Origin: Bacillota bacterium
GTDB lineage: Bacteria > Bacillota > SHA-98 > Ch115
Length of the DNA: 64,000 nt
Direction: 5' to 3'
Assembly (NCBI GenBank): GCA_013178415.1
Contig: JABLXA010000013.1
Location: 1 to 64,000 of the forward strand
Below, piece by piece: positions 2,145 to 48,181 of this stretch. Both the position numbers and the translations under genes were made by a program. The notes beneath the pieces are model-generated. The model saw only the letters and a list, made by a program, of their open reading frames with translations, was not told the DNA's origin and searched no databases. Each line of letters begins with the position of its first letter. Position 1 is the first letter of the stretch.

Positions 2145-3236
2145 ATGCCTATTGGGCAACTGCCCGATAAAATGAAAGCAGTAGTAGTGCATGGGCCTGA
2201 AGATTATCGGCTAGAGGAACGTCCCGTGCCGAAGGCGGGCCCGGGAGAAGTACTGGTCAAGGTTCTAGCTACAGGGGTTTGCGCAAGCGATGTAAAGACA
2301 TATTATGGAATGCGTGTCTGGGGATCGGAAGATATCCCTCCATATATCGAGGTTCCGGTTGTTCCTGGCCATGAGTTTGTCGGAGAAGTGGTTGCCCTGG
2401 GGGAAGGATCTGAAAAATATGGCCTCGCAATCGGTGATATGGCGGTTTCCGAGCAGATTATCCCATGCTGGGAGTGCCGCTATTGCCGGCGTGGCCAATA
2501 CTGGATGTGCCAGAAGCATGACATCTATGGATTCAAGCGGGGGCGCGCGGAGGGCTCGTGGGCACAATATATGAAATTCCCAGCCAATGCTATCAACTAC
2601 AAGGTGCCGAAAGAGATTCATCCAGAGATCGCCGCCACTATCGAACCATTGGCATGTGCAATCCATACTGTCGAACGCGCTGATATTCAGTTGGGCGATG
2701 TAGTCGTCATCGCCGGTATGGGTCCAATTGGACTCTTCATGCTGCAGGTGGCTAGAATGAGGGGGCCGGGGCTACTGGTCGCGCTGGATTTGAAGCCACA
2801 TAGGTTGGGGCTCGCGCGGCGCCTTGGGGCAGATGTGGTTATCAACCCTGCCACTGAGGATGCTGTAGAGAGGGTCCTGGATCTGACAGAAGGGTACGGA
2901 TGTGATGTATATATCGAGGCAAGCGGAGCCGGCGCAGCTGTGCCACAGGGGCTGAAAATGATACGGAAGTTGGGCACTTTTGTTGAATTCAGCGTCCATG
3001 CAGGACCTGTAGCAGTAGACTGGTCCGTTATCGGGGACCTGAAGGAACTCAATATTCATGGCGCACACCTGGGACCATATGCCTATCCCAAGGCCATCAA
3101 ATATCTTGAGGAAGGTAAAGTATCAGCTGATCTTATCGTCACACACAAGCTACCTTTAGAAGGCTATAAGGAGGGCATCCGGCTGGTTCATGAAGGCAAT
3201 GAATCGGTCAAAACTATCCTCTTGCCACATGCCTGA
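2145..3236 (+). CDS. Zinc-dependent alcohol dehydrogenase, erythritol/threitol dehydrogenase-like
   Basis: A medium-chain dehydrogenase/reductase of 363 residues that oxidises an alcohol or polyol with NAD. The catalytic zinc site is shown by GVCASDV and GHEFVGEV, and the structural zinc lobe by CWECRYCRRGQYWMC (C-x2-C-x2-C-x7-C). The Rossmann fold follows with AGMGPIGL and an acidic residue in VALDLK, which favours NAD over NADP. The sequence looks closest to the erythritol/L-threitol dehydrogenase branch, but this rests on recollection of family members. A GGGGGGA ribosome binding site lies seven bases before the ATG. No transport or kinase genes for a polyol lie beside it. Confidence 0.85.
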   Translation: MPIGQLPDKMKAVVVHGPEDYRLEERPVPKAGPGEVLVKVLATGVCASDVKTYYGMRVWGSEDIPPYIEVPVVPGHEFVGEVVALGEGSEKYGLAIGDMAVSEQIIPCWECRYCRRGQYWMCQKHDIYGFKRGRAEGSWAQYMKFPANAINYKVPKEIHPEIAATIEPLACAIHTVERADIQLGDVVVIAGMGPIGLFMLQVARMRGPGLLVALDLKPHRLGLARRLGADVVINPATEDAVERVLDLTEGYGCDVYIEASGAGAAVPQGLKMIRKLGTFVEFSVHAGPVAVDWSVIGDLKELNIHGAHLGPYAYPKAIKYLEEGKVSADLIVTHKLPLEGYKEGIRLVHEGNESVKTILLPHA

Positions 3237-4781: not shown

Positions 4782-4826
4782 TGGCTGGGGAGGAGGGACT
4801 CGAACCCCCGCACTCAGATCCAGAGT
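4782..4826 (-). other. attL: displaced 3' end of tRNA-Gln
   Basis: These 45 bases are identical to 48108-48152 and correspond, on the minus strand, to the anticodon-distal half of tRNA-Gln including the T-arm, acceptor strand and CCA. Identity stops at 4827. The fragment has no 5' half and is the displaced host end left by integration. Phage DNA between it and the first gene (4827-4938) is AT-rich and contains three ATCCCC motifs at 4839, 4859 and 4900. Confidence 0.93.
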
Positions 4827-4938: not shown

Positions 4939-4963
4939 GTCGGATTGCCATGGGATTGCCACA
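4939..4963 (+). repeat. Left integrase arm-type repeat (candidate)
   Basis: GGATTGCCA occurs twice with an 11-bp period at 4942 and 4953. The 25-bp block matches 48036-48060 near the other prophage end at 23 of 25 positions, in the same orientation. Paired short repeats on both sides of the core are what arm-type binding sites of tyrosine integrases look like, so this is inferred to be the P' or P arm of attP. Confidence 0.6.
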
Positions 4964-6722: not shown

Positions 6723-9700
6723 CTAACGCAGCGCCTCCTTCCCCATCGCCTCCCGTGCCATATTTGTCATACGCACCTGAATTTCATAGAGTAGCTTCTT
6801 CTTTTCCGCTGCTGGAATGCTCTTGTCTGCCAGGACACGGTTTCGCTCATCTCGATACATCTTGAGCAGATCGTTATACACCTTGAAGACTTCATGCCGT
6901 GCAATATTCTTTGGTATAGTCGCATCCTGTCCGCGTTCTAACCGCCGGTTGAATGTGTTCCACTCGCGGTCAAGCCTGGAAAGCTCCTCGTAAAACTGAT
7001 CCAGACTGCGGGGGCTGGATAGGGGCCTCCCCACAAATGCCCTTGCTCCCGGTATAAGCTCCGCAGCCGTCTTTTTCTGGGTAGCTTCGCCCGCGAGCAG
7101 GTCGAGAGTCTCCAGCCCCATCATGCCCAGGCCACCGCTATACGCCCTCACCGCCGCCTCAATGCGTCGAGGCGAGATATTGAAGGCCCTCCCCAGGGCC
7201 TTTGCTGGCGCCGTCGTGTACGGGCCGTACTGCTCGGCAGACTCCAGCAGCTTCTCGCTCTCAGGGACAATCGGTGCGCCGGTCAGCAGGCTCTTGTTGG
7301 CATACTGCTCCACAATCCCGATGAACGCTGTGGGCAGTATCGACGGAGTCACCATATCCCACGCTGACTTGGCGAGATCTTTCATCGCCTCGGGGTCATG
7401 CTCGTCGAGCCATTCCAGGAACCTCTCGGTCAGGCTCCCGAACAATAACCCGGCCTCGTGCGGCTTCGGGATATATATGGCTGTGCCTTCCTCGGGATAG
7501 AAACACCAGTATTGATCCTTGCGCCATCTGGCCTCCTCCTTGTATTCCCGCTTGTCACGGTTGATGAGATATACCAGGAGGCTGATCATCATGAGGAAGG
7601 AACCGCGCGCCAAGACCTTGACCGGAGCGCGCCTGAATTCCCGCCCGAGTCTGTCAATGCCTTGTATCTGCGGGTTCAGGAACCGCCAGGCCATGTTTAA
7701 TTGCCGACCTACCGTGCCCGCCCGCTGGAAGTCGAGAGAAACCTCTCTCGACGCATACGCGGCTTTGAGCTTCGCTTCCCGGCCCGTTTTACCTTCGGTA
7801 TCACGCAGGTACTCAGCCATCCTGGAGACTTCATCTGATATTTCCAGGATCGTTTCGAGGAATGTCAGCGGCAACCGGACGGTCCCTACTACTTTTTCGG
7901 CGAATGTAGTTTTACCTGTCATGCGCATGGCCCGCCGCTCTAGTTCCGGCCTGGACAGGCTGACCATGGCGGCTTGCGCGCCGCCGGCAGCTTCCCATTC
8001 GACGTATTTGTCACTCTTGCCCAGGATGTTCGCCAGCGCCCTAACCGTGTCTACGGGGATTAACCACGGCTTTTGGGCATACAATACCCGAGAGCCTGTA
8101 TCACGAGCTATATTCCGGGCCGCAAACTCAGGCGTGCTGAGAGCGCCTATATGGAGCAGTCTACTCGTAACGGCAAGCAGCCGCGTCACGAAGTCTGCGG
8201 CTTGCACGTCCAGACCCTGGAGTGCCTTATATAGCTCCGGATGGACCTGGTAGAAAACTGCTTCTTTCCCGCGCCGGATCACCAGGATGTTTTCTTTCTG
8301 CTCTTTGAAGCGCGCAAACCTGACCGGCTCAAATACCGTTGCTATCTTCTCCAGATCAGCCAGGTCAAGCTCGGACTCGGGCACACCCGCGTCAATGAGA
8401 TCCTTCTTTAACCGCTCTAGCTCAATCCTGTTTGCTTCGATCGGAGCGGGGATTTTCTCGATGAGCCATCCTGCACCCTTGGCCTCATCCGCAATCTCTG
8501 CGAGAGCCTTGCCGACATACGCGCGTTTGGCTATGTCCATGAAGTAGAAGGTATCCCGGATGTCAGACTGTATCGGATCCCAAATCGGACGTTCGGAACC
8601 TTTATACCGCTTGATGGCCTGTGGCAAGTCCGCAAGGCGTTTCCCGCGTCCTGGCCCACCCTTGTCTCCTGCTAACACCCGGTAGAAGGGGACGTGATGC
8701 TCATTTAATTCGCGCATCTTATCTGCCATGTCGGATGATAACGCCCCGGAATCTACTAGCCAGCCGATGAGGTTGTCCTTGAACTTTTCCCGTTCCTCTG
8801 CGGCCTTGCGGAATTCTAGGCTATCCAGCTCCCTGACGATAGCCTCGGCTTCGTCCTTTGTAATGCCCAGCCCGGAAGGTTTTCCTTGCTCCTCTAGTTC
8901 GACGACACGCCGCGCCACGATGTATTCAACGAATTCATCTATTCTATCTTTGACCGGCTCCAGTATCTTCTTATAGGAGGGGCCTGCTACTTTGAGATCC
9001 GGCGTAACCATGCCATGTTCAAGCATGGCAGATGCCGCTCTCGATGAGGACCTGGCGAGCCTGGCAAGGATATACGGGTTCTTCCGTATCTCCGCGTCGA
9101 ATTCGCTATGCAGTTCCTGCGGCAGCAACACCTGCATGGCTTTATACACAACATGGAGATCGTCGAAGGCCGCCTTATAGAACATCTCTTTTCGGTTAAG
9201 GAAGGTTTCTTCCTCTGGCGCCTTCTTCACGATGTGAGCGCGCATGGTTTCCCTTGCACTTTGGGACGCATATCTGCGATAGAGGGATTGGGCCTCCTTC
9301 AGCTTGCCCAGCATCTCATCGCCAACCCTGTGTTCGAATTCATCCATGAACAAGGGAGCTGCCGTCTTAGCTGCCCTGGGATCTGACAGATACAACCGGA
9401 CGAAATCGGCTGCACCTTCTGTTAGCTGCACCCCTAGGCCAGCCTTTGGATACAGCTTCTCACCTAGCGGTTTCAACTCTGATTTGAATTGCTTCAGATC
9501 ACTCGGTTTGATCCCCAGGATTCCCTGTATATGGTGCCCCAGTTCATGGAATGTCGCCTGGAGATCTCCTGGGGATTTGGTGCGCGCTACCTGCTCACGG
9601 CCCTTGTATTCGCCCCTCGCTTTTTTCTTGATCATGTGCCCGGTCCGCATCGGCACCAGGAATTTCCTCTCGATATAACTGATAATGCTCTGTCTGCCTA

Positions 9701-12700
9701 CAGGGGTCCCCGCTCCTTTACCGGTAGCGGGGCGTGAAGGGGCTGAAGGAGCCGTAGGTTGGGCAGGCATCCCGTGGATTTCCTCCTCGCCCATATCCTC
9801 ACCTGCAGTCTCGCCACCGCCCGTGATCTCCTCCTTTTGCCCTAATCCGAGTTCATCCGCAATGGCGGCGCTGCGCCTCTCCAGATCGGCCAGCTCTTCC
9901 TTGTGTTCAAAGCCCTTGGCAAGTTCCTTTTGCAGCTCTGACAGATTGTGTTTGGCTTTTTCCATCGCTGCGTTGAGGTCAGCAAGGTCTTTTTCCATGT
10001 TCCTGATTACATATTCGACACCTGCCAGGGTTCCTGTGGCCTGATATTCACCTTTCCCGACGATATATAGCTCATTGCCGCGCGCAGATTCGCTCCATCG
10101 GGTTACCAGATCAAACCCGGCTATCCGGCCTATTTTGCCAGGTTTCCCGTTGACAGCCTTCTGTAACGCCTCATCTGCATCTTTCCGGCTGGTATAAGTC
10201 TTGCCTTTGACCTCCATTTTGAATTTGTCCTTGGAGATATCCTCGCGGGTAGCGATGTCCGCCTCTAACGCGGAGATTTCTGTTTCCAGGGATTTGATAT
10301 ATGTCGGCAATCTCCGGGTTACCTGGTCCTCAGCATCGCGTCGATTCTCATAATAGTGGGATTCAAGCATCTTCAGACGGCGTATCTCAGATTGCAGCTC
10401 CATGTATTCTTTGATCTTGGGGTTGCCGGATGCAATCGCCGCCATCTGAGCGTAGCTTAGGGCTTCATCACTGATGTCTTCCATCTCACGAATGCTCGTG
10501 TCACCGCTCATAATCCGGCTGAATGATTGAGCCTTCGTCGCTATTAAATCCCACATGAATGAGTCAAATGATCCCTCTGTGGCGTAGGCGTATACCTGTA
10601 CTTCTTCATTCTCATTGCCCTGGCGCAGGATGCGGCCCTCGCGCTGCTCTATGTCGCACGGCCGCCACGGAGCATCCAGATGGTGTAATGCGACTAGCCT
10701 CTTTTGGACATTTGTCCCCATGCCCATCTTTTGAGTGCTACCAATGAGTATCCTTATGGTGCCAGCATTCACGTCGTTAAATAGCTCTTGTTTGGCTGCG
10801 TCATTCTTCGCTTCCTGTATGAAGGCTATCTCCTCTTTGGGCACGCCTCTAGCGATGAGTTTATTCCGGATATCTTCATAAACATTGAGGAAGCGCGCAT
10901 CGTCATCATCCGCTTGAGATTCCGCTTGAGTTTCTTGCGCCTCGGTATCTGCGGCCCCTCTGGGGGTTGACAGGTCGAGGAAGACTATTTGCGTCAATCG
11001 CTTGTCGGCAGTTTCCCGCCATATTTGCGCTATTCTATCGGCGGCTACAGCGATTTTGCTATGGGGTTCTTCCGGTAAAGATGGATCCACCAGACGCATG
11101 TCAAGAGCAGCCTTGCGACCATCACCGGTTACCTTTAGCGCATTATCTTCATCCGGTTTAACTTCCCCGCGTCGTATGGCTTCCATGCGTTCTACAAGCT
11201 TCTGAATATATGCTTTCAACCGCTCTGAAGCTGGCGCGGACAACATTTTGCGCCCCCCGCCAGCAATCTTGGGTACAGGTAGCTTCAACATTTCCTGCGT
11301 CTGGACATCCGCGAACGAGCGGAACATCATTAGTAATTCGCCTAGATTGTTAAACTTGGCGAACCTATCTGTTTGGCGGTAACCGCTTCCTGTCGGAGAC
11401 ATTTCCCATACAGAGATGACCTCTCCAAACGCTTTTGCCCACGCATCGAAATTGTGTATGCCCTTGGCCTTTAGCTCATCGGGTTGCAAATACCGTTGCA
11501 GGGTATACATTCCAGCCATTGAATTGGCAATTGGCGTGCCGGTCGCGAAAACTACCCCGCGTCCTCCGTTCAGTTTTTGTAGGTAGCGGACCTTCATATA
11601 AAGGTCGAAGGCTTTAGCTGACCCTTCTTTCGACCCTACTCCCTTTACCCGGTTCATGCGAGTGGTAAAGAAGAGATTCTTGAACTCATGGGCTTCATCG
11701 ACAAACAGCGCATCAACTCCGAGATCCTCAAATGGCAATGCGTCTTTGTCACGTTTGATTTTGCTGAGTTTCTTTTCCATCTCTGTCTCAAGCCGCTTTT
11801 TCGCCTTCTCCAGGTTCTTCACATACCCTTTGGAGGACCGTGTTCCAGATTGGACCTCTAGTTCTATTGCCGTTTCTAACTCTCTAATCTGCTCGTTGTA
11901 AAAATCCTCAATTGCCTGGGAGGACATCGGGATCATCCCGAAACTGGAATGGGAGATGATGATCGCATCATAGTCTCCCGTCGCGATCTTACTGAGGAAC
12001 TCTTTGCGATGCGCGGCATCCATATGTTTCGCGTCTGCCACGAGAATGTTCGCGGCGGGGTAAAGCTGCAAGAATTCCTCAGCCGTGCCCTGCACCCTGT
12101 TGTTTGGCACCACCATCATCGACTTCTTGCATATTCCCAGACGCCGCAACTCCATTGCACCTGCGACCATCTCAAAGGTCTTGCCAGCTCCCACTACATG
12201 CGCCAGCAGGCAGTTCCCACCCTGCAGGATACGCCATATGGCATTCTTTTGGTGAGGGCGCAGGGTAATGGCCGGATTCTGACCCGGGAGAGTCAGGTGA
12301 CTGCCATCATACGTTCTCAGGCGTAGATTATTATATTGATCGTTGTATAGTTTCATAAGTCTATTGCGACGGTTTTCATCAGACCAAAGCCATCGCTCGA
12401 ATTCTTCCTCGATGGCGCGCATCTTTTCACGCGCTGCTTCAGTCTCCTTGGGGTTAAAGATCCTATCGCCATCAGAGGTAGTATCGTATATCTCTGGTTT
12501 CTTGTTTTGCAGGATGCACTTTTTGATAATATCGAGACCATCCATCCGGTACGTGCCCCATTTTTGAGTAGCTTCCACCGACCGGTGAGCCCATCTCGAC
12601 GTCTCTTCAACGATCCAATCGCCGGTATTCTGCATGTATCGCACTTTGAAGTTGCTATATGATGTATCGAACAGATATGCCAGGAAATCTTGCATCACAT

Positions 12701-15700
12701 CTTCCGGTATCCAAGGCGCCCCCAGTCTCGCCTTGATTTCCGTGTGTTTTAGGTCAACAGGCTGCACCGCCTTGAGAGCCTCGACATTCTCCTTGAATGA
12801 CGGGTCATTCTGCGCGGCGGCTTCTGCTGCACGCAGCTTCGCCCGAACATCGCCAGAAAGATAATCGTCCGCTGTACGCCAACCATCCTGTGGATCATGG
12901 TATATAACGCCTTTTAGCTCGCGGATCATGTCGGCTACAGTCTTTCCGGAGAGTTTTGACATACGGTCAAGGTCCACGGTGCCAGTTTCATTCAGTGATA
13001 CGACGAGGGCCTCCTGCGCGGTGTCAACATGTTCAACCGGCTTATATCTCTGCAGGGTCCGTACATGAAAGACGTCCGCTTTCTCAGCGGACGCCTGCCG
13101 ACCCTTGGCTTTGTTCGGCGGCCTGTAGTTCTTTTCTAGGGACATTACCAGATGGTAGTCCGGATCGTTGGCGAAGATGCTATTGTTGGCTTTATCATGG
13201 AGATAACCATATTTCTTGACGAAGTTATCGTAAAGCGTATTGAGCGCCTTCATAGATGCTTTGATCGCATTGGGTGAAGCATCTTCCGAGAGTTGGAGGC
13301 GCAAGTGGGTCCTTAGCGCGTCGCGCAATGCCATCATCCCACGCACACGTTTCTCTGCCGTATCAGATAGACCCGCTGGGACTAGCACGTTCCCTTTCTT
13401 TACATGGAGCTTGCCGCCTACGTCCACAAATGCGTCTTCCTTGACATCCCCTGGAGCCGGTATCAGTTCGCGTGGTTCCACTGCTTCCGTGGCCTTGTGG
13501 ACTGGTTTTGTAATGATATTTTCCGGCAACCTGCCAAAAGCCTCGGATAATGCTGCCCCTAGATCGCGCCCATCAGATTCAAGGGCGGCCCGGCCAGGAT
13601 GTAGCTTATCATCCACGATTTTCCCCAGCATCATCTCCGGATGACGCACGAAGTATTCGTTGATACGGAGAGGATCCCCATATTTGCCGCGTACACCCGA
13701 ATCTACAGTTCCTTGCCATGCCTCGCCAGCAGGCGGTGTTCCCGGTTCCCTCTTTTTGAGGATCAGGATATCTGTCGTGACTTCAGTGCCAGCATTTTCT
13801 TTGAAGGCGTTGCCAGGTAATCTGATAGCACCGATAAGGTCTGCCTTCTGCGCGATCAGCTTGCGGGCAAGCCCACTCCGCCCGCTATTCATAGTTCCAG
13901 CGGTGGTGATGGTCATGACTACCCCACCAGGACGCACCTTATCGAGCGATTTGAGGATGAAGTAATCATGAATGTATAGTTTGTATTTGTTGTATTCTGG
14001 GTCATTGACAGAATAGTCGCCAAAGGGAACATTGGAGATCATTACGTCGTAATAGTCGTTCGCTAGGTTCGCTTCCTCAAACCCTTGGACGCGCACGTCG
14101 GATTGAGGGTATAGCTGTTTGGCAATACGCCCTGTGATGGAATCGAGTTCGACCGCTGTAAATCTAGACCTTGATGCCACATCTTCCGGCGCCAGCCCGA
14201 TAAAATGCCCGATGCCTGCTGCGGGTTCCAGAACGCGCCCGCCCTTAAATCCCAAACGCCGTAATCCGCTCCACATGGCTTTTACGACGGTAGGCGAAGT
14301 GTAATGCGCGTTAAGAGTTGAACCTCTTGCGGCTTCATACTCCTCATTACTTAGTAGCTCGCGCAATTCCTTGTATTCATTTGCCCATTCTTCGTTGCGA
14401 TCCCAACTTGTTGGTGGTTGGAATGCCCTTGATAGACCACCCCACCCAACATACTTCACCAGGACCTTCTGTTCCTCTGGCGTAGCTTGTCTGCCTTCGG
14501 ATTCAAGCTGTTTGAGCAAACGAATAGCTTCTACATTGGCACGGTACTTTGTCTTGGCCCCGCCTTCACCGATACGATCCTCATTAGAGATACGATAGTT
14601 TACTCCTCGTTCTCCTCGTCTCTCAGCGGCGGTTCTAATGTCGCTGGGTTTCTGTGGCCCAGGTCCTTCTGTTCCTTCTCCTCCGGCAGGTCGATGTACT
14701 CCTGTATCGCTAGGCTCCGTGCTAGATACGGTTCCACGCCCTGCTGCGTCAGAAGGCTGCACATTTCCGCTGCGTTCTCCTGCGCCGCGTATGCCGCCTT
14801 GTAGAGTCTCCCCGCCTTCTTGAGGTCGCGGTACATTTTCGGCCTGAATTCCTTCCAATGGTCCAGCGCCCTCAGTCCTAACCCGAGGAGCTTCCGCCTG
14901 TACTCCTCCTCGGTCATCTCCTGTGGCATGCTCCTTCACCTCCGATTTGATTATAGCACTAGACGGCTCTGTGGCGGGAGATAGCTCCCTTGGTGGCACC
15001 TGTAGAGTTGGAACAGACCCCTCAGCCTGCGGCACTGGCGCTTGTTGACCTGCCAGGCTATTTGCGAATTCTATACGTTCCGGTGTACGCTTGCCATACC
15101 ACATCTTCTGTTTCGGACTCCACCGGAATCCCAGATGATGGAGCTGACTAATGACGGATGCGTCCGGCTTACTCTGGAAGCGTATCTCGACCCCGTCCTT
15201 TTCCTCATTCTGAGTGACCTGAACGCCCGTTGTTCCATGAGTTGGAGCGACCGAAGCAGGTGCAACTGGGGCCTCATGCGCAGCCGGAGCGGGCGCAGGT
15301 GATGTTTCAGAAATCTCTAGTTCCCTAATCTTCCCAGACGCTTTGAGATCCTTGACATAGCTGTTCCATTCATCGGCGGAGATCGCGCCATCTACTAGTT
15401 TAAGGCGCATACGTCCGGTTTCCTCCGCATCCTGAAGCCTTACGCCTGGGACAGCCGCATTCCCAAGCAGTTGATATAGCTTTGTTTTGACTGGTGAATA
15501 GTCACCACCCTTATACGCCCTCAATTGGTCGATAAACATCTTCTCTTTCGCCGTATATGTCTCTGGTTTCACGGAAGCCTCTGTTTTGATCTCTGGAGCC
15601 TTTGCAATCTGTACCGAAGGTGATTCTGCCTCGGGTATTCTCTCAGGGGTTTGGACGGCCTCCCGGTGCATTACAGAGGCAGACGTAAAGACTGCTGGAG

Positions 15701-18700
15701 GCGTTTCTGCCACCGGAGCTGTAGGTGCTGCATCGCCCTTCTTGGGTTCAATGTTGGTGCCATCGAGCAGATGAATCGTGTGCGGACGGTTCTCCAGACC
15801 GGCGTAGCGTGGCGATATCGTCCCTTTGTCGAGCAGCCGCTCAATCCCTTTGTTAAGGCCATCTATGCCATTCTTATTAAGTGCCTTTTCCGCTTCTCGA
15901 ATAGCCTCTTCTCGAGAAAAAGCGCCTGGTATGATGCGATATCCGGTTATCCCTTCCGAAACGAGCCATTCATCTGGACGTGTCGGATCGTGATGCACAA
16001 AAAATTCATAGCCCTCAAATCCGGGGAAATTGACTTTTTCACCCCTGACTTCGCTATATCTGCGAGTTCTCCCATCGTTATCAATCACCGCAGAGAACAT
16101 CCTATCCGGGAGAACAGGTTCTTTGGGCGCTAAGGTTTTCGGCTCCGGGGCGGCAGTGGCCTCTTGAGTAGGCTCCGGAGAGACAGCAGTTACCTTAGTG
16201 GTTACGGCTGTTTCTGGGGCGTTGATTTCTCCTGCTGTTTCTTGTGGGCGACTCGCTCTTTCGACCTGCGGCACCTCTACCTTGCCCTCTGAAGCTTCCG
16301 GAACTTGCACCGAAGGTGTTTCTACCTTGGGGACTTTTACAGGGGCTTGTTCGGGTACTTTGGCCTTTTCCACCAGCTCAGGATAATCCTTCAGCACCTC
16401 GCGGGAGACGGGCTTGCCTGCGGCAAGGGCCTCCTCGACCGCACGGCGATGCGCTTTTTCCATCAAAGGCCGGAACGTTGCCGTATCAACCATGTAGCGC
16501 AAATCCGGCTCTGTATTCTCACGGGCCTGTTCAATCCACTCCTCCTGCGTCATCTGCCAGGGTTCCTTCTGACCCTCTATTTTGACCTCTGGAGTCTCCG
16601 GAATCTGTACTGAAGGTGTTTCTATCTTCGGCACTTCTACCGGGGCCTGTGTGGCCTCCTGGCGCGTTGGTAGAACCTCTGTCTTAATGGATTCTTCAGC
16701 GCCCGTTTTTACAGGAACCTCTGGGGTTTCTTGCGTTTGGGCCTCATGTGCCACTTGCGGCACTTGAGTTATCTGGGTCTCTTGCGCTCCCGGTTTTGCC
16801 GCTTCCTCTACCCGTGCCTGATGGACTTTAGGAGTGGGAATAGGGGTCTTCGAGACTAATAGACGCCCAATCTGAAATTCATTCCCGGTTACGGGATCTG
16901 CCCCTCTGATTAAACTGGGATCATTGGCGCCCGTGACCTTAAACTGCCTGCCGTCGATGTCGTAGACTATATCTCCTGGCTTGATTGATCTATCAATCTG
17001 CCGCTTCAAGACAGAACCGCGATCAAGGGTAACCTTCTTATGATCCTTGTCCTCAGCAATTAACACATTCGGATCTCTGGCATCAACGACATGATATATG
17101 TTCCGATTCGAATCTATTACAGCGTCACCCGCATTGATCCGGTCAGAGGGGGGATTAACTATTTGTGGCGCTGATAATGCCATTTCATCGGGTGTTCCAG
17201 CCTTGATTACCTCTTTGACCCTTGCTGTCCTGGGCCGTGGCACAGATTCAGGTTGCGCTGTGGGGGCCACGGGTGTTACAGGCTTAGCCGGTTCAATCTC
17301 TATCTTTGTCAGATCCTTGGTCGGGACAAGCCAGGTTTTTCTCTTGCCATCCAATGGCTTATCACTTTTCACTTTGGCGGCAGGAGCCTTATCTCCGCTG
17401 AGAGCCTCTATTGTCCCAGTCACGGTATTGCCTTTATGCTGCCAACTCACTCTATCTCCAGGCTTTAAGCCAATCGCCTGTATTGTCTGCGCGGTCTCGG
17501 CTGTCGAACTGGGAACTGTCTGCGTGCCTTTAGCCGGAACCGTTACAACGGGGGCAACCTGGACAGGGGCAACCTGAGCTGGAGCGGCCTTCTGTTTCTT
17601 GGATGGCTGGACCTGTGGAGCCTGTTGTGTTCCCTGTTGTAGCTGCTTTACGACATTGTTGGCTATTCTACGTGCCTGGAGTTCTTCAGCCACTTCGTTA
17701 GCAACGCCTGTCGCGCCCATACCCATGCCCATCAAAGCGCCGATAACCCCCGCCTCTTTCATGGCTGGATCCCACGCAACCTTCTGGCCTTGCGCCTTGC
17801 GTTGGAATACCTCTTGCGCGACTTCCTCCGCGCCCTCCTGAATGCCGGTGGTCGCGAGACGGCCTGCTCCGCGCATGATGGGATTGAGCTTGCTCAACCC
17901 AGGCACCTTTGCGAACGAAGTTAACAACTCACCTGCGTCGAGAGCGATAAGGCTCAGGTTGTATTTGAATGTCTTATCAGCGGCTTTGTCTGCTTCTTGA
18001 GGCGACATTCCGCGCTGGATCATATCATTATAGGTCCCGCCGGCCTCCATAGCGCTTTCAATCGCCCTGGACATGGCGCCACCAGCGACAGAACCTATAA
18101 TCTCTGATGTAACTGCGCCAGCTCCAGCGGCTGCCGCCGCTTTTGTGCCTAGTTTCATGCCTCCGATACCAACCGGCAGGAGAGCAAGCATAAAGGGTAT
18201 TGACCTTGCGACTGGGCCGGTATAGAAACTGGGATCGAGGAGATCTCGCCAAGTGAAGTCCTTTATCTGCGGCTTGCCGACCTTCTGAATCTCTGCTCCA
18301 ACAGAGATAAGCGTATCACCTAACTGCTTAGCGCCGAGCCACTTGGCTGCACCACCAGCAGATGCGGCAACATCGCCTACGCCTGCTGTGATACTCCGTA
18401 ATATTTCAGTGAGTGGTGGTTCAGCCGGCGCGTTTGCCACCTGGGGCATTCCCTGGTAAAAACTCGGTGAACGTGGGGCTGAACTTTGCACGGAGAATGA
18501 CATTGGCGTAGGTTGCGGTATCGTGGAGGCGGCATATGGAGTGGCATTCACCCTTGGGACCGATGGGGCTGGCGAAGCCGCCTGCATACGATTGATGCCG
18601 CCCATAATTGCGGCTAGATACGGATGATGCGCAGCAAAGCCAGGGTCTATACCCTGGCCCTGCCATTGTTGTTCATATTGGGCCTGTAGAAGGTCCAGCA

Positions 18701-18782
18701 ATTCATCTACAGAGTCCTTCTTCTTTTTGTCTTTGTCCTTCTTTTGGTTCTGCTGAAATAGCAGATCTATAGAAGAGGGCAT
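6723..18782 (-). CDS. Giant polyvalent virion-type protein: methyltransferase, SF2 helicase, metallopeptidase, LPD38-like
   Basis: A single frame of 4019 codons with a strong AGGAGGTG site five bases before its ATG. Residues 1-400 hold charged low-complexity sequence and Ala/Gly-rich hydrophobic stretches (about 190-235) that could contact membranes. Residues 400-1190 are Pro/Val/Glu-rich linkers with small folded islands. Near 1190-1235 is a short domain containing [19 protein letters not shown], seen in other phage antirestriction proteins. A methyltransferase follows (SAM motif [10 protein letters not shown] at 1518, catalytic NVPF at 1584-1587), then an SF2 helicase (GAGKT lysine about 2200, DEAH 2362-2365, [20 protein letters not shown] about 2712) with coiled coils. 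A HELGHH zinc-peptidase motif is at 3079-3084, and an LPD38-like region lies around 3700-3830. The helicase-methyltransferase pair recalls P1 DarB, and giant proteins of this kind occur in Bcep22-like podophages. Inferred role: packaged, injected and protective of phage DNA, possibly self-processed. Confidence 0.88.
14600..14929 (-). CDS. Overprinted small gene embedded in the giant gene
   Basis: A 109-codon frame, same strand as the giant gene but shifted by one base, covering codons 1285-1395 of the latter. The protein is acidic and helical ([60 protein letters not shown]) and has normal protein-like composition. The giant frame over the same bases reads Gly/Arg/Glu/Pro-rich low-complexity sequence. 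GGAGGTG lies seven bases before the ATG (14937-14943), and an extended -10 TGCTATAAT lies at 14950-14958. Its TAA abuts the point where the recognisable methyltransferase-helicase sequence begins. I recall similar short proteins in other mobile elements but cannot name a function. Confidence 0.6.
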
Positions 18783-18793
18783 TGCCGCACCTC

Positions 18794-21181
18794 CTATTTC
18801 TTCTTCTTGCTAAATAGGCTAGTCACCCAGTTTATAATCTTGGATACCGTGCCCTCTTGGTTCTGATTACTCAGCGCTTCCGTTATCGCCTCCGGCGTCG
18901 TGCCATATTCCTTCGCAACCTGCGCACGTATCGCTTCCCCTCTAGGCGTTAACCATATAGAACGAGCCTGGGCAACATCCCCATTTGCGCGCGCCAGTAT
19001 GTCAGCAGCCGCTTTCATCGCCCCGGATCTCACTGGGTCATCTTTAGTGTGGATAGTAGCTTTCGGGGAAACCCATTCGGGTGGGGTCTTGCCTTGCATC
19101 GCTGCCGCTATATTCTGAGCGACGTTAGCCGAGAATACCTCTGGGTCAGGGATTTCTTCGCCTTTGCTTTTCATATATAATTGGACCTTTGGGTCACCGT
19201 ATTGCGCATTCCATATTTTCAGTCCAAAGTCCATAAGCTCCTTCATGTTTATTGGCTGCCCGGAGCTTACCTTGGTCTGGAGGTTTTTCAATGTTTGGGC
19301 GGCAATTTTGGCATTGTTCTCGGCTTCTTGCACTCTAGCGTCCTTCGTCTTCATGCTGACATACGCTTCGTCAAAGGAGATTTTCGCCTTATTAGCCGTT
19401 ATCGCAGCTTCATTCTTCAAATTCTCTGGGAGGAACTTGAGAATCAGATCTTGCTCCGTCGCTTTCCCTTCCGCGATCCTGGTATTGGCAGCTTGTTCGC
19501 GAATCCTAAGCCCCTTGGTAGCCTCCGCGACCTCGGCTTCTGCCGCCGAGATCTTTGCCCCACTTTTGGCTTTCTCGGACTCGGCCCTTAGTTGGTCTAT
19601 GAGATCTTGCATAGTGGTTACGGCTACTTGAGCGTTAACCCCTGCTGTGGTGGCATTGGCCGCGGCAGTGTCTGCTTCTGCCCCTGCAGTCCTAATGACG
19701 TCATCCTTGGTGGCCTCATCAATGTCTGCCTTCACGTTTGCACTTCTTGCCCCAGCCTCTTTGGTCGCCACCTCAAGGTCAATCGCACCCGGCTGGTGCC
19801 CATGCGCTATCAGCCAATCGTCTACATATTTCCTGATATACGTGTCATATGCCGTTGCGTCGTTACTTAAATCAAGACCCTTTTTCTGTGCCTCTTTGAT
19901 CGCAATATCAAGGTCGATCGCTCCTGGAGCATAGCCTTTATCTTCCAGCCATTTGTCTATCTTTTTTTGCTGTTCGAAAGCGTAACTTTTGGTCTGGTTA
20001 TCTAGCTCTTTCCCTGCTACCTCCAGCTCAGCCCCCTTAATTCTTGCGCCTTCAGTGGCGTTCGCAACCCTCGCGTCTGACCCAGCGATCTCTGCGTTGG
20101 CTTTTGCCGTTGCCGTCTCGTAGGGGGCCAGTTCCTTGGAGTGCTCCAGATTAAACAATATAGTGTCAAGTTCTGCCTTCAGCCTCGGTTCGCGGGTTTG
20201 GTTCTCGATAATCGCCGCCTTCACATCTTCCCATGCCTTCTGGACCTCAAGCGGTCCTAGCTCTTTGGCATGCTCCAAATTGTATTTCAGTGATGCAAGG
20301 TTTGTACGAAGTGTATCGTCGAGATATTTGTTCTCTGTGATCAGACGATTCAGTTCTTGAACCGCTGATAGATTCGCGATCCTCTTGCCCTCAGTTTCTA
20401 GCTTAGCCCCCTCAATTCTTGCCTTTTCGGTGGCCTCCGCAACCCTCGCGTCTGACCCAGCGATCTCTGCGTTGGCTTTTGCCGTTGCCGTTTCAGATGG
20501 AGCTAGCTCTTTGGCGTGTTCAAGATTAAATGTCCCTGTGTCAAGTTGCAGCTTAAGCTGCGGTTCAAGGTATTTGCCTCGCGTGAGTAGTTGATTAAGC
20601 TCTTCCGCCGCAGTTTTATTGGCGGTCTGCTTCCCTTCAACATCTAGCGCGATCCCATTAGGTCCTAACCCCAGTTTGTCATAATAATCTTGCATGCTCT
20701 TTTTAAGACCAAGATCAAACCTTGCCCCTTCATTACTCAGTCCCTGTCCCGTTACTTGTTCGCCTAATAGCTTATTAGATAGTTCTAACCTCGTGGGCAG
20801 GTATTGTCTCTCAATTCCCCATTTATCCTGCTCGCGGACCTCCTGCCCCTTGACCGCCGCAGTATTAGCTTCCGTGTTAGCTATACCGGTCTCCTGGGCC
20901 TTTACTATCAGGTCGATCATCTCCGGGCCATAACCATGGTCTTTAAGCCACTGTCTTTTGTCTGATTCATTCATATTCTTGATCGCTTGAAACGCATTCG
21001 CTAGTTTTATGCCTTCTACAGTAGCCTGAGATTGCGGCAATGTCACTTCATTAAATATCTTTTCCTGAAGTTCCTGCGCGCGCCTTCGCAATTCTTCATC
21101 CTTAGCTTGCTGCAATTGCGCCCTATACTGGTTATACCCTTGCAGGAACCCCTGCAACAAAGGTCCCAAACCTATCGCCAT
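18794..21181 (-). CDS. Large helical internal virion (ejection-type) protein
   Basis: A 795-residue, Ala/Glu/Lys-rich, almost entirely helical protein of no named family. A short hydrophobic N-terminus ([19 protein letters not shown]) is followed by heptad-like repeats and the protein ends in [11 protein letters not shown]. Two internal repeat families are visible: a block containing [18 protein letters not shown] present twice (about residues 230-270 and 355-395), and a motif of the type WLxxxGxxPxxIDL present at about residues 78, 400 and 440 with a degenerate fourth copy near 170. Its place between the short upstream virion gene and the giant polyvalent gene suggests that all three are packaged inside the capsid and ejected. 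GGGGAGGGG precedes the ATG. Confidence 0.75.
20063..20491. repeat. 54-bp perfect direct repeat inside the 795-codon gene
   Basis: Bases 20063-20116 and 20438-20491 are identical over 54 bp, 375 bp apart and in frame, within longer diverged copies (about 20027-20157 and 20397-20530). They encode the duplicated [12 protein letters not shown] block. The high identity indicates recent duplication or gene conversion. Confidence 0.85.
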
Positions 21182-21196
21182 ACAGACCCCTCCCCC

Positions 21197-22096
21197 TTAC
21201 ATCTTGAACCCTGGGAAGGCGTTCGGGAACATCATCGGAAGCCACATTCCGGCTAACCCGCCCAGACCACTCCAGAAGTCGCTCTGGTTTTGCATCGAGT
21301 TCTGGTATTGAGCCAGCTGTCCCTGGAACTGCAGGTTGCTGCCGGGTTGCATGGCTGCGAATAGCTGCATTGCTTGCTCAATAGGTATCTGTGCGGCCTG
21401 CTGCTGTCGTATCCATTCCTGGTAGGGGGCTAATACCCCCTGCTGCGCCTGCGCCTGTTCAGCTTGCGCTAAGTTCCACAACTGACCTAACCCGGCATCC
21501 TGATATTGTCTCTGGACATTCCCCAGCTGCTGGCCCATCGCCATCGCATTGGCTATGTCCTCCCTCGTCATCTGGGAGCCCTGGATGGCTATGTCTCGCG
21601 CGAGTTCCCTGATCTGCTGCCCTTCCTGCTCACCCAGCTTCTGCTGCGCGCCAGTGAGGAGTCCAGACTGGTATAAACCCCTTCGCGCATAGTCCTCAGC
21701 TTGCCGGTTCCGGGCCTCATTGAAATATTGGGACACCCTATCCTTAGCCCGGCCCCATAGCGCATCCTCCAGCTCATTGGACATGGCGTTATATCCAGGT
21801 TGCAACCGCTGGTTGATGAGGTTCTGGATCCGGTTCTCGATGTCCGTCAATCCGGTGCCGGTCCGGCCCATGATAGCCTCGCGCATCCGCTGCCAACTCT
21901 GGGTAGGGCCTGCGGTCAATGGCCCCTGATATGACGCAGGAGGTTTGCCTATCTGGTTCTGGATGTATGGCATAAGCGTGCCTAATAGCTGTTGCTGTTG
22001 TGGTGAGTATGAAAACTGTGGGGGTTTTGGCGTTGGCCTTGTGGCGCCAAAAAGCCCGATACCCCCCATAATCGTCGGTATCAACCATGGAGGCAT
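21197..22096 (-). CDS. Gln-rich internal virion protein
   Basis: A 299-residue, strongly glutamine-rich protein with hydrophobic ends (LIPTIMGGIGLFGA at the N-terminus; GLGGLAGMWLPMMFPNAF at the C-terminus) and a helical, Gln/Ala-rich middle. There is no recognisable catalytic motif. Proteins of this build lie between the tail and internal-protein genes of many short-tailed phages and are ejected with the DNA; that is the inferred role here. It starts the three-gene block of putative ejection proteins and follows a terminator. GGAAGG lies about eleven bases before the ATG. Confidence 0.7.
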   Translation of the reverse strand: MPPWLIPTIMGGIGLFGATRPTPKPPQFSYSPQQQQLLGTLMPYIQNQIGKPPASYQGPLTAGPTQSWQRMREAIMGRTGTGLTDIENRIQNLINQRLQPGYNAMSNELEDALWGRAKDRVSQYFNEARNRQAEDYARRGLYQSGLLTGAQQKLGEQEGQQIRELARDIAIQGSQMTREDIANAMAMGQQLGNVQRQYQDAGLGQLWNLAQAEQAQAQQGVLAPYQEWIRQQQAAQIPIEQAMQLFAAMQPGSNLQFQGQLAQYQNSMQNQSDFWSGLGGLAGMWLPMMFPNAFPGFKM

Positions 22097-36108: not shown

Positions 36109-36198
36109 TGGCGGAGGGAGTAGGATTCGAACCCACGAGGGTCGTAAGACCCTGACGGTTTTCAAAACCGCTGCGATCAACCGCTCTGCCACCCCTCC
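36109..36198 (-). tRNA. tRNA-Ser(TGA)
   Basis: A 90-base class II tRNA on the minus strand, 5' GGAGGGG at 36198, encoded CCA at 36111-36109. The anticodon arm is GCGGT-TTTGAAA-ACCGT, giving anticodon TGA. A long variable arm (AGGGTCTTACGACCCT) and the T-arm GGGTTCGAATCC are complete. It is inside the prophage, between the terminase small subunit gene and a terminator. Confidence 0.93.
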
Positions 36199-37861: not shown

Positions 37862-37915
37862 TTACGGCTTGATGGCTTCTACCTCACCGATGCCGTAGAA
37901 TTCTTGTGGCGCCAC
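37862..37915 (-). pseudogene. Fragment of a foreign portal gene
   Basis: In the frame ending TAA 37862 the minus strand reads VAPQEFYGIGEVEAIKP, which aligns with IVPHEFYGIGEVEVIKY of this phage's own portal (DNA 33305-33358). The nucleotide differences are mostly third-position changes, so the fragment comes from a diverged, functional portal of a related phage and is not a recent local copy. It overlaps the last codons of thymidine kinase in a different frame. It is not expressed as a portal. Confidence 0.7.
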
Positions 37916-38510
37916 CCACGTGGCACCTCCAGCACCGCGCCTCATAGCGTACGTTGCCATCATCCAACACCACCCTGGGTTCATCCCTACGCGCCGGGGC
38001 CCCATCGAGATGGAGACGCTGGGTGCATAAGGCGGGACTGCCACAGACGGCACATTTCCCTTTCCTGAGTATATCTACATCAGCGATATTGAGAAGGTCC
38101 CACGTCGTCTCCCAAAAATCTCCCTTGAAGTCATAATTTAACCCTGAACATAGAATGGTCCATCCCCACTCGCGCGCAGCCCGCTCCACAACGGGAATGA
38201 TAGACCTATCAAAAAACTGCACCTCATCTATACCGATAGCAATTGGTTCCTTAATCTGTCCCTCACGGGCATGAAGATCAATAAATTCTCTCTCAAGATC
38301 CTCAACGGGATGAACAACAATCTCTCGACCATCATGTGTCTTCATTTTAGCGAGTTTAAATCTCCCAGATTTTGCAACCGTCGTAGGGACAATCACATTA
38401 GGGACATACGCAGTTCTCCGTTGATACTCCATCCTCATAAGCAATTCTGTCGTTTTCCCTGCACCCATTGGTCCCGAAATGACCTCTACACTACCAGGTA
38501 TTTCAGACAT
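37884..38510 (-). CDS. tdk: Thymidine kinase
   Basis: A type II thymidine kinase of 208 residues that phosphorylates thymidine to dTMP. Motifs are the P-loop SGPMGAGKTTELL (12-24), Walker B-like GIDEVQFF, the substrate-binding lid region CSGLNYDFKGDFWE, and two zinc knuckles, CAVCG and CWRCH. The last dozen residues (VGGATRILRHR) are not family-like: they are read out of frame through the portal fragment at 37862-37915, so the C-terminus has been replaced by recombination. Family members end close to the second knuckle, so activity may be kept. GAGGAGGT precedes the ATG. Confidence 0.88.
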   Translation of the reverse strand: MSEIPGSVEVISGPMGAGKTTELLMRMEYQRRTAYVPNVIVPTTVAKSGRFKLAKMKTHDGREIVVHPVEDLEREFIDLHAREGQIKEPIAIGIDEVQFFDRSIIPVVERAAREWGWTILCSGLNYDFKGDFWETTWDLLNIADVDILRKGKCAVCGSPALCTQRLHLDGAPARRDEPRVVLDDGNVRYEARCWRCHVGGATRILRHR

Positions 38511-38900
38511 TTATGATACCTCCTCAATCTCTATCACCACGCGCGGACGTTTAGGGTCCACTCCTGCTATCAATGATCCGTCCACGCACACGATATCCCG
38601 GTCGTTTGCGATTATCCCCGCCGCCTGGAGTATGTCATGTGTCGCCTGCATGAGTCCGACTAGGTCGGGCCAGGATCGGCGGTCGGGCATGTAATACTGT
38701 GCCGTCACCCGCACCGGCCCGGAGAACCGAGGGCCTTGATAGGCCCTCAGCTCCCGCAATGCGCTCTCCTCATACTCCTTATACGCCTTCGACGGGACCA
38801 CAAACCGCTTGCCGCTCTTCCGATTTTGCCACACCTGCTGATGGTTCTTCTTCGTCACCGGTCTCCCTGGAATGACGATCTCAGCTCGCACAAAAGCCAC
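38511..38900 (-). CDS. RusA-like Holliday junction resolvase
   Basis: A 129-residue RusA-family endonuclease. The N-terminal VIPGRPVTKKNHQ and the acidic motif RRSWPDLVGLMQATHDILQA, GIIANDRDIV carry the conserved aspartates that bind metal at the resolvase active site. It cuts four-way junctions made during replication and recombination. It begins at GTG 38900 and overlaps the sigma-like gene by 20 bases. Length is typical of the family (about 120-135). Confidence 0.87.
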   Translation of the reverse strand: MAFVRAEIVIPGRPVTKKNHQQVWQNRKSGKRFVVPSKAYKEYEESALRELRAYQGPRFSGPVRVTAQYYMPDRRSWPDLVGLMQATHDILQAAGIIANDRDIVCVDGSLIAGVDPKRPRVVIEIEEVS

Positions 38901-39510
38901 CCCGCTCTCGCACCGCCGCCAACGACCGGGACACCTGCGCCTGGGAGCATCCCACTTTCGCGGCTATCGCCGTTTGCCCTAATCCTTTTGCCCGCAGACG
39001 CACAATCTCTGCGACGCGAGGATGGAGATCTGACACCGCCCGCGTCATGTCTACTTGGGTTGTGACGATGTCCTCCCAATCCTCATCCACCGCCAGGGTT
39101 TCACCAAGCGGAAGTTCCTCGCCATGCTTATTGACGGCTAGGGGCGCATCCAGCGATACAATTATCGCATCTCGCCGTCCATCTTTGCCCCGCCAGGGGC
39201 GAATAAGCTGACCATCTCGAAACGCTCGAAACATGAACCCCTCTATGTATGGCATCGCATATGTGGAAAAGGCAGTACCACGATCGGGATCGAAACGTCT
39301 CAATGCCTTCATACATCCGATCATACCCGACTGAAATAGATCCTCTTTCTCTATCCTGGCCGCCGCCAATTTCTCCGCCGCATTCCCAAAATGCCGCCAG
39401 TAACAGCTCCACACCAGATCGTGCATTTCCCCCGCCAGGGCCTCCAGAGCAGCAGAATCATGCTGCGCTCGTTTAATTGCTTCAAGATCAGATAACAACC
39501 TCTGCTGCAT
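38881..39510 (-). CDS. Phage-encoded RNA polymerase sigma-70 family factor
   Basis: A 209-residue protein with a sigma region 2, EDLFQSGMIGCMKALRRFDP then GTAFSTYAMPYIEGFMFRAF, and a C-terminal region 4 HTH, HPRVAEIVRLRAKGLGQTAI, AAKVGCSQAQVSRSLAAVRE. It lacks a full region 3 and is like sporulation or SigB-type factors in region 2. It should redirect host RNA polymerase to phage promoters, probably middle or late genes. AGGAGGG spaced eight bases precedes the ATG. Confidence 0.82.
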   Translation of the reverse strand: MQQRLLSDLEAIKRAQHDSAALEALAGEMHDLVWSCYWRHFGNAAEKLAAARIEKEDLFQSGMIGCMKALRRFDPDRGTAFSTYAMPYIEGFMFRAFRDGQLIRPWRGKDGRRDAIIVSLDAPLAVNKHGEELPLGETLAVDEDWEDIVTTQVDMTRAVSDLHPRVAEIVRLRAKGLGQTAIAAKVGCSQAQVSRSLAAVRERGGFCAS

Positions 39511-46703: not shown

Positions 46704-46889
46704 GTGAGGCTCCCGGACAAGTGGAAGCCTATCATTATCGGTGCATTATTGGGCGCGGTTCTGATGGCGCTCGTCCTCGGACGTTATAAGATCGTCGGAG
46801 ACGCGGAATCAGTCTACAAGCTAGATCGGCTCACAGGGCGCGTATGGTGGGTGCTCTATGATTCAATGAAAGAGGTGGAGGTAAGATGA
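46704..46889 (+). CDS. Small membrane protein of the lysogeny operon
   Basis: A 61-residue protein from GTG 46704 with AGGGGGTGAG upstream. It has one membrane helix, IIIGALLGAVLMALVLGRY, and a C-terminal polar domain (YKLDRLTGRVWWVLYDSMKE). Its stop overlaps the integrase start (ATGA). Expression from the lysogeny operon suggests a superinfection-exclusion or signalling role; this is inferred from position only. Confidence 0.6.
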   Translation: MRLPDKWKPIIIGALLGAVLMALVLGRYKIVGDAESVYKLDRLTGRVWWVLYDSMKEVEVR

Positions 46890-48022
46890 AGGGCCACGTC
46901 CGTAAGCATGGGGACGGCTGGCAGGGGGTCGTCTACCAGGGCAGGGGACCCGACGGCAAGAAGCGGTATAAATATCTGCCTGTCGCCCAAACCCAAAAGC
47001 AAGCCCAAAGGATGGTAAACGACATCATTGCTGAGATGAACAAGGGAACCTACATAGAACCCACACGGCAGACTGTCGCCGAGTGGTGCCGGGAGTGGCT
47101 GGAACTATACACGCGCGGAGTCTCTGAGGGTACCAGGGTGTGGTATAAAGATGTGATAGAACGTCTCATCGCGCCCGCGATCGGCGGTATACCTCTCGCA
47201 AAACTCACAGCAAGCGATGTCCAACGCTGGCTCAACAATGAGTTAGATCAGGGGTATGCGCCAGATACAGTGCATGGACATTATCGGGTGCTTCGGGCCG
47301 CTTTGTTGAAGGCAACCCGCATGAGGAAATTAGCTGTCAACCCGCTCCTCGAAGTTGAACCGCCAGCGCGGAAACGAGAGGCGGGGAAAGCCATTACCGC
47401 AGAGCAGGCTGAGGCATTCCTAGCGGCCGTACGAGAGCATGCCCCATATCGTTATACACTCTACCTAACCGCCATGACAATGGGGATGAGGCGGGGTGAA
47501 ATCCTGGGGTTGCGCTGGTCGGATGTAGACTTCGCGCGCGGCATGATAAACGTGAGGCAACAATTACATAAGTCATCGACCGTCGCGAATCCTAAGTTCA
47601 AAGAGGTAAAAACAAAACATGGCCGACGGGACTTGCCCATGCCGAGGATGCTGGCAGAGGCCCTAGCGATATATAAAGTTGAACAGGATATGATCAAGCA
47701 GGCTCTAGGTAAATCTTACAACCCGTATAATCTCGTGTTCACTACGTCTAAAGGAACGCCTATCATGCCGTGTGACCTGACCCGCCAATATAAATCCTTG
47801 CTCAAAAAGGCAGGAGTGCCCGAAATACGATTGCATGATCTGCGTCATACCAACACTACATGGTTGCTCGAAGCAGGAGTCTCTCCAAATGAAGTCGCAC
47901 GATTCGCCGGGCACGCTGACCCTGCGTTCACCGTGCAAAAATACGGCCATACCCTTGAGGATCACTTAACTAGGCCAGCGCGGGTGATAGATGAAATATT
48001 GCGTAAAAAAATAGGGGGGTAG
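46886..48022 (+). CDS. int: Tyrosine-type site-specific integrase
   Basis: A 378-residue phage integrase. An N-terminal arm-binding part (HVRKHGDGWQGVVYQGRG) precedes the SAM-like core-binding domain (about 60-160) and the catalytic domain with R202 (GMRRGEILGLRW), H317 and R320 (LHDLRHT), H343 (GHAD) and Y353 (QKYGHT). It should catalyse recombination between attP and attB in tRNA-Gln. It lies next to attR and is cotranscribed with the repressor, so it is expressed in lysogens. The stop lies 14 bases before a candidate arm site. Confidence 0.93.
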   Translation: MKGHVRKHGDGWQGVVYQGRGPDGKKRYKYLPVAQTQKQAQRMVNDIIAEMNKGTYIEPTRQTVAEWCREWLELYTRGVSEGTRVWYKDVIERLIAPAIGGIPLAKLTASDVQRWLNNELDQGYAPDTVHGHYRVLRAALLKATRMRKLAVNPLLEVEPPARKREAGKAITAEQAEAFLAAVREHAPYRYTLYLTAMTMGMRRGEILGLRWSDVDFARGMINVRQQLHKSSTVANPKFKEVKTKHGRRDLPMPRMLAEALAIYKVEQDMIKQALGKSYNPYNLVFTTSKGTPIMPCDLTRQYKSLLKKAGVPEIRLHDLRHTNTTWLLEAGVSPNEVARFAGHADPAFTVQKYGHTLEDHLTRPARVIDEILRKKIGG

Positions 48023-48035
48023 CAGGGACTTTATC

Positions 48036-48060
48036 GTCGGATTGCCACAGGATTGCCACA
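48036..48060 (+). repeat. Right integrase arm-type repeat (candidate)
   Basis: GGATTGCCA occurs twice with an 11-bp period at 48039 and 48050. The 25-bp block matches 4939-4963 at 23 of 25 positions in the same orientation. It lies between the integrase stop and attR, 48 bases from the core. Confidence 0.6.
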
Positions 48061-48107: not shown

Positions 48108-48181
48108 TGGCTGGGGAGGAGGGACTCGAACCCCCGCACTCAGATCCAGAGTCTGATGTCCTACCGCTAGACGACTCCCCA
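48108..48181 (-). tRNA. tRNA-Gln(CTG), prophage attachment site
   Basis: A 74-base tRNA gene on the minus strand. Acceptor TGGGGAG pairs with CTCCCCA, the discriminator is G and CCA is encoded. The anticodon loop CTCTGGA gives anticodon CTG. The 3' 45 bases (48108-48152) equal attL, so this is attR: host 5' half joined to a phage-borne identical 3' half, which keeps the tRNA functional after integration. Confidence 0.95.

Follow-up and report, generated by a model that had tools for sequence, protein, structure and literature searches.

A giant DarB-LPD38 polyvalent protein in a Bacillota prophage, and comparisons that suggest exchange of cargo on a conserved peptidase-bearing end

A prophage within the 64,000-nucleotide stretch of Bacillota DNA analysed here (hereafter the window) encodes a 4019-residue polyvalent protein whose C-terminal end recurs in other phages joined to unrelated domains. 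Comparison of these proteins points to exchangeable cargo on a conserved chassis, with a metallopeptidase domain where the two meet. The original prediction, which described a methyltransferase, a helicase and a peptidase motif combined in one packaged and injected chain, is partly supported as a whole. By sequence comparison the combination itself was already known, from the Vibrio podophage VvAW1, and what appears to be new, and constitutes the most useful addition of the analysis, is that the cargo is exchanged whereas the peptidase-chassis end stays fixed.

The giant reading frame and its prophage

The protein is encoded on the minus strand by a frame that opens with ATG and contains no internal stop. 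Its parts, with positions in the window, are as follows.

6723..18782, minus: polyvalent protein ORF, 4019 aa, intact single frame
17481..18413, minus: N-terminal module, residues 124-434 (phmmer E 8.3e-29 to locus L021, 2e-8 to L020)
14349..14669, minus: LPD36-like region, residues 1372-1478 (aligned with VvAW1, E 8.6e-25)
13623..14345, minus: N6-adenine DNA methyltransferase, residues 1480-1720 (motifs, profile, P1 DarB alignment)
10443..12395, minus: SWI2/SNF2-type SF2 helicase/translocase, residues 2130-2780 (Pfam, motifs)
9708..9830, minus: linker between cargo and peptidase, residues 2985-3025, candidate self-cleavage zone (composition)
9129..9740, minus: zincin-type metallopeptidase domain, residues 3015-3218 (HMM from 18 rows including the window; AlphaFold model, pLDDT 86)
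9534..9548, minus: HELGH zinc-binding and catalytic motif, residues 3079-3083 (motif)
9417..9419, minus: E3122, predicted third zinc ligand, in EGAADF (motif/alignment)
6726..9200, minus: C-terminal chassis, residues 3195-4019, mostly helical, holding LPD38 (homologues, model)
7065..7547, minus: LPD38, residues 3746-3906 (PF18857, E 1.7e-37)

The motifs predicted for this frame were all recovered where they had been placed: an 11-residue SAM motif I at residue 1518, NVPF at 1584, VGAGKT at 2197 (GAGKT at 2198), DEAH at 2362, an 11-residue helicase motif at 2713 and HELGHH at 3079; the minus strand was absent from that description. In 20 shuffled versions of the window stop-free runs reached 281 aa at most, and profile matches reach E=0 for 'DarB-like antirestriction' (phrog_10089, residues 1333-2984, PHROGs profile search) and 1.7e-37 for LPD38, so the frame is not a product of chance. 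Pfam matches above cut-off are to LPD38, Helicase_C, SNF2-rel_dom and ResIII, in agreement with the helicase and the LPD38-like C-terminal region that had been anticipated. No close relative suited to a dN/dS calculation was found. The chain unites several unrelated activities, lies in a phage late-gene context and carries LPD38, a domain named as phage-only in the account that proposed the class (Iyer 2017, PMC5512222), and it is thus properly called a phage-type polyvalent protein.

The prophage is delimited by the following features.

4782..4826, strand not assigned: att repeat, left, 45-bp perfect direct repeat
48108..48152, strand not assigned: att repeat, right, within the 3′ part of tRNA-Gln, 45-bp perfect direct repeat
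46886..48022, plus: integrase, next to tRNA-Gln (phrog_1, E 5.6e-73)

The repeat copies the 3′ part of a tRNA-Gln gene (48108-48181) and bounds a unit of 43.3 kb, 28% of which is the giant ORF; the expected tRNA-Gln prophage was in this way borne out, as was its assignment to Bacillota, the phylum to which the relative G043 also belongs. Upstream of the giant ORF and in the same orientation, PHROG matches identify TerS, TerL, portal, major head and tail/head-closure type genes, with a gene in the scaffold position for which there was no PHROG match. The giant ORF forms the end of this virion-gene operon of a podovirus-type prophage, an endolysin gene adjoins it downstream, and the far side of the prophage holds matches to a DnaC-like loader, replication initiation, Gam-like and repressor proteins and the integrase. 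An intact Bacillota DarB-LPD38 polyvalent protein accompanied by an integrase and att sites provides a clear example of the type.

Within the cargo, an N6-adenine methyltransferase of the EcoKI/TaqI type, with motif I and an NPP[YF]-type motif, is followed on its C-terminal side by a SWI2/SNF2 ATPase for which SNF2-rel_dom and Helicase_C both score above cut-off. Three stretches of P1 DarB align with this dyad, one over the methyltransferase (30%) and two over the helicase (22% and 35%), a homology that together with the PHROG match supports the DarB-type assignment. Residues 1372-1478 are homologous to other dyads and include a GEGG at 1405 that fits GxG[GAS], and no LPD36 profile gave a match; both the dyad and LPD36 were described with the class (Iyer 2017, PMC5512222). 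Of 50,697 phage records, 121 were hit in a tblastn search with residues 1333-2985, and in 53 of these the hit covered at least 80% of the query. Dyads were detected at E <= 1e-100 in 17 of 398 sampled Bacillota genomes and LPD38 at E <= 0.001 in 10 (8 above cut-off), and the two occurred together in the window's genome only. In a tree of 21 dyads, a quick and unrooted one with long branches (those of the window and JC1 among them) that included all 15 Bacillota loci tried, the three fused to LPD38 (window, VvAW1, JC1) were split from the 18 others with an SH-aLRT of 99. In the Streptococcus phage phi-SgaBSJ31_rum (MN270259.1, 76902-84174), a DarB/SNF2-like coding sequence is fragmented, the matched stretch also bearing an annotated retron-type reverse transcriptase, and the split is possibly an intron-like insertion.

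The combination had been thought little described in short-tailed temperate phages, a view not supported in the light of VvAW1 gp1 (2012; NC_020488, 3640 aa as annotated), which has the same order of LPD36-like region, methyltransferase (NPPF), SNF2 helicase, HExxH zincin and LPD38 and lies, like the window ORF, at the end of a virion operon. It is co-linear with residues 1305-3921 of the window protein (33.7% identity, 2858 alignment columns), and so supplies the homologue of like domain order that had been sought, although its N-terminus is different and its chassis belongs to another clade. VvAW1 is a podophage thought to be temperate, in which its authors found no integrase (PMC3558961). 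The Bcep22-like DarB proteins, including JC1 gp69, likewise combine the dyad with LPD38 at the end of the virion module; gp69 is a 4515-aa DarB-LPD38 protein detected in purified virions by 51 unique peptides (PMC9144972), and differs from the window protein in an N-terminal lytic transglycosylase and LPD3 and in giving no match to the window-type peptidase HMM. P1 DarB (2255 aa) has, like the window protein, a methyltransferase with NVPF and a SNF2 module; no HExxH was found in it, the peptidase and LPD38 parts did not align with it, and the GxGKT and DEAx regular expressions did not match it. A Firmicute prophage polyvalent protein of Acetonema longum (WP_004096050.1), described as having SNF2, adenine methyltransferase and zincin domains (PMC5512222), also carries GGDEF and ART, and its likeness to the window protein is by description only.

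The peptidase domain and the exchange of cargo

Pfam gave no peptidase match to the 4019-aa protein, and the assignment of a peptidase therefore depends on an HMM, motif conservation and a structural model. The HMM, built from 18 rows with the window among them, recovers residues 3015-3218. HExxH with a downstream EGxA[ED][FYW] is found in 19 of the 22 peptidase-bearing chassis proteins, the window's included; the three others (L085, L090 and L047) have only the first motif and were left out of the alignment in which it appears invariant, so that this invariance is partly a matter of row choice. Retention of the HExxH-E set in 19 of 22 divergent relatives nevertheless suggests selection on catalysis. 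The AlphaFold model (pLDDT 86.1) comprises a helix, three strands, the HExxH helix and further helices, one with the glutamate (H21-32, E36-38, E48-51, E56-59, H65-80, H84-101, H107-124), an order much like that given for polyvalent zincins (Iyer 2017, PMC5512222). The HELGHH domain that had been predicted is thus, on the conserved motifs and a confident model, a conserved zincin with a glutamate as its putative third ligand, for which proteolysis is predicted. In VIA-align the model aligned with the catalytic part of lethal factor (1zxv; Z 9.0, 124 aligned, 3.5 A), PPEP-1 (Z 7.8, 115 aligned, 2.9 A) and IrrE (Z 6.4, 91 residues, 3.5 A), values that are middling by that program's own note. Foldseek returned no match to the model at E <= 0.001, and a fold relation to lethal factor and PPEP-1 is therefore suggestive only. 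The linker that precedes the domain is 78% P/A/G/T/S/E, vs 43% for the whole protein. A zincin-like motif, HEFGHMLD, appears by sequence to occupy another place in L086 (about residue 1353) and L089 (about residue 1105), inside the LPD38 chassis rather than before it.

A scan of viral contigs with the single C-terminus found no relative, and a search with a three-row alignment retrieved 65 viral loci and 1 genome-contig locus. At the level of structure, 71 viral models match the chassis model at E <= 0.001; no clear fold was seen among PDB entries, for which the best Z was 6.4 over 72 residues. The chassis, as the final 825 residues, served as query against ORFs of 250 aa or more from the relatives' loci, leaving out a host stretch (L024) and short loci. 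From the resulting 74 chassis ORFs, including the window's, 5 were dropped (two duplicates, two truncated at the 5′ end and one incomplete), as were a further 14 that were at least 85% identical to another, and 55 were kept. Sought from 250 residues before to 20 after the chassis start, HExxH was present in 22 of these, 95-162 residues ahead of the chassis, and 33 were without it. All 22 were scanned, and 10 proved to have recognised domains on the N-terminal side of the peptidase.

DarB dyad: window, VvAW1
Zeta toxin and ddrB-ParB: L016
PBECR3: L018, L084
Strawberry-notch helicase: L020, L021
SLT: L043
ddrB-ParB: L085
RadC-ART-GGDEF: L093

Among 13 of the 33 peptidase-less proteins that were scanned (not a random choice), three had an effector domain: ART in L075, PBECR3 in L023 and Zeta toxin in L098. 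A split gene at L094, considered as a cargo/chassis boundary, was not counted, because the overlap between its two frames lies within the chassis.

The protein at L016, on a Syntrophomonadaceae MAG contig (G043), belongs to a prophage of the same terminase, portal and capsid lineage as the window's (TerL 2.4e-147, portal 6e-93, MCP 1.1e-90; the scaffold weakly). Its chassis is the sister of the window's (SH-aLRT 100) and the two peptidase-chassis ends are 41% identical, whereas its cargo is a Zeta toxin with ddrB-ParB instead of the dyad. Homology begins at residue 2979 of the window protein and continues to the C-terminus; upstream of that residue nothing significant aligned. The two phages therefore amount to a natural swap experiment, one that makes the 2017 peptidase-processing proposal directly testable on a short fragment, and the sharpness of the breakpoint should be useful for mapping packaging signals.

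Across the wider set, 118 of 162 pairwise alignments over HExxH start 40-110 residues before it, 30 start nearer and 14 farther, and the extension between VvAW1 and the window is by far the longest, at 1888 residues. Some relatives also have an N-terminal module in common. The window protein's own module matches those of L021 and L020, so that within the loci compared each of the protein's three parts is closest to a different relative. A single hydrophobic segment (191-209) lies in this module, for which a membrane or ejection role is possible. We would entertain only tentatively the broader idea that short-tailed phages have in LPD38 proteins a general plug-in platform for delivery. On this view effectors unrelated to one another (DarB dyad, Zeta-toxin kinase, ParB nuclease, RNase, Strawberry-notch helicase, ART, GGDEF) would be swapped at a fixed breakpoint upstream of a conserved C-terminal virion chassis and junction zincin, and the zincin would free the cargo in the new cell. 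None of the titles and abstract openings surveyed in the open-access literature describes an LPD38 chassis with exchangeable cargo.

Proteins with the peptidase have longer N-termini (median 846 vs 475 after subtraction of 230 residues for the peptidase; Mann-Whitney p 0.001, n=22 vs 33), and N-termini above 600 aa occur in 16 of 22 with it vs 8 of 33 without (Fisher p 0.0007). With phylogeny controlled for, only two independent pairs remained on branches with support. The association therefore demonstrates nothing beyond common descent, and the junction-peptidase model is accordingly treated as plausible. A strict rule, by which the peptidase would be present exactly when cargo is, fails on L075, L023 and L098, on L052 and L102, which have long N-termini and no peptidase, and on L044 and L062, which have a peptidase and a short N-terminus.

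A possible mechanism and its alternatives

The best explanation, to which we assign a probability of roughly 0.5, is that this is a virion-built DarB-LPD38 polyvalent protein that is ejected with the DNA, its dyad countering restriction and its zincin freeing the dyad. The protein would be built into the virion, held by the C-terminal LPD38 chassis and perhaps also by the N-terminal module, and would be ejected together with the phage DNA. Once inside the new host, the methyltransferase-SNF2 dyad would track along the entering DNA and protect it from restriction by modification or shielding, and the zincin at the cargo-chassis junction would cut the adjacent Pro/Ala/Gly-rich linker. By analogy with the known systems, packaging and ejection of the 4019-aa protein are highly probable and antirestriction by the dyad is likely; self-cleavage in the linker at 2985-3025, judged solely from position and conservation, has about an even chance. 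Several observations weigh against the picture as a whole: the phylogenetic control and the exceptions among the relatives described above, the missing peptidase HMM match in the JC1 protein, the packaging of N4 virion RNA polymerase in uncleaved form, and the absence of HExxH from P1 DarB. P1 DarB is packaged and believed to enter the cell (PMC9024508), where it protects DNA in cis from type I restriction (PMC5512222, PMC9024508). Three HsdR_N matches occur in the host genome, two of them in 1073-aa frames, so type I restriction is probably met by such a phage.

It is very improbable that the giant gene serves lysogeny or defence from within the prophage and is not a virion component: DarB-like dyads do exist outside LPD38 proteins, the window's genome being the only one of the 17 with a dyad that has LPD38 too, but the terminal place in the virion operon, LPD38 itself, the same operon position of VvAW1 gp1 and the JC1 virion proteome all argue for a virion component. 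As to the peptidase, it might after injection cut host proteins, for example repressors or defence proteins, in the manner of IrrE/ImmA-type zincins, sparing its own chain. In favour of this, the model aligns with IrrE as well as with lethal factor and PPEP-1, and host targets are an option raised by Iyer (2017, PMC5512222). Against it, the Z values and the Foldseek result are as limited as described above, and in the 22 peptidase-bearing relatives HExxH stands beside the chassis whatever the cargo; we consider cleavage of host proteins unlikely.

A rather unlikely alternative has the peptidase domain mainly structural or needed for encapsidation, with the giant protein working uncleaved. The precedent is the N4 virion RNA polymerase, which is packaged unprocessed despite a peptidase domain whose region is needed for encapsidation; N4 and DdrB are set as contrasts to zincin processing in the same source that proposed peptidase self-processing for the class (Iyer 2017, PMC5512222). 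The retention of HExxH-E among divergent relatives speaks against this and for catalysis. The dyad could also act otherwise than in antirestriction, its SNF2 motor helping to pull DNA into the cell or its methyl mark regulating phage DNA, a reading that seems improbable to us: the translocase motifs are intact, and function tests of DarB-like proteins, in the portions of PMC5512222 and PMC9024508 drawn on here, concern P1 only, yet homology to P1 DarB, the PHROG annotation and the type I HsdR genes of the host genome favour antirestriction.

Further features of the prophage

Two virion-operon genes immediately upstream of the giant ORF are candidates for ejection proteins.

18794..22096, minus: two genes, of 795 and 299 aa, candidate ejection proteins (no PHROG match and one weak PHROG match)

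The 795-aa gene (18794-21181, minus), the one without a PHROG match, contains an internal duplication of two 134-nt copies, 85% identical, together with a 43-nt family, and possibly encodes a coiled ejection protein. A second repeat, of 25 bp (92%), lies beside the att repeats at 4939-4963 and 48036-48060 and is perhaps an integrase arm site. Inside the prophage, adjoining the terminase genes, is a tRNA-Ser(TGA) at 36109-36198 (minus); a serine tRNA is carried by each Bcep22-like phage according to the JC1 paper (PMC9144972). The prophage also carries thymidine kinase and sigma-factor-like genes, at 37884-38510 and 38881-39510 (minus).
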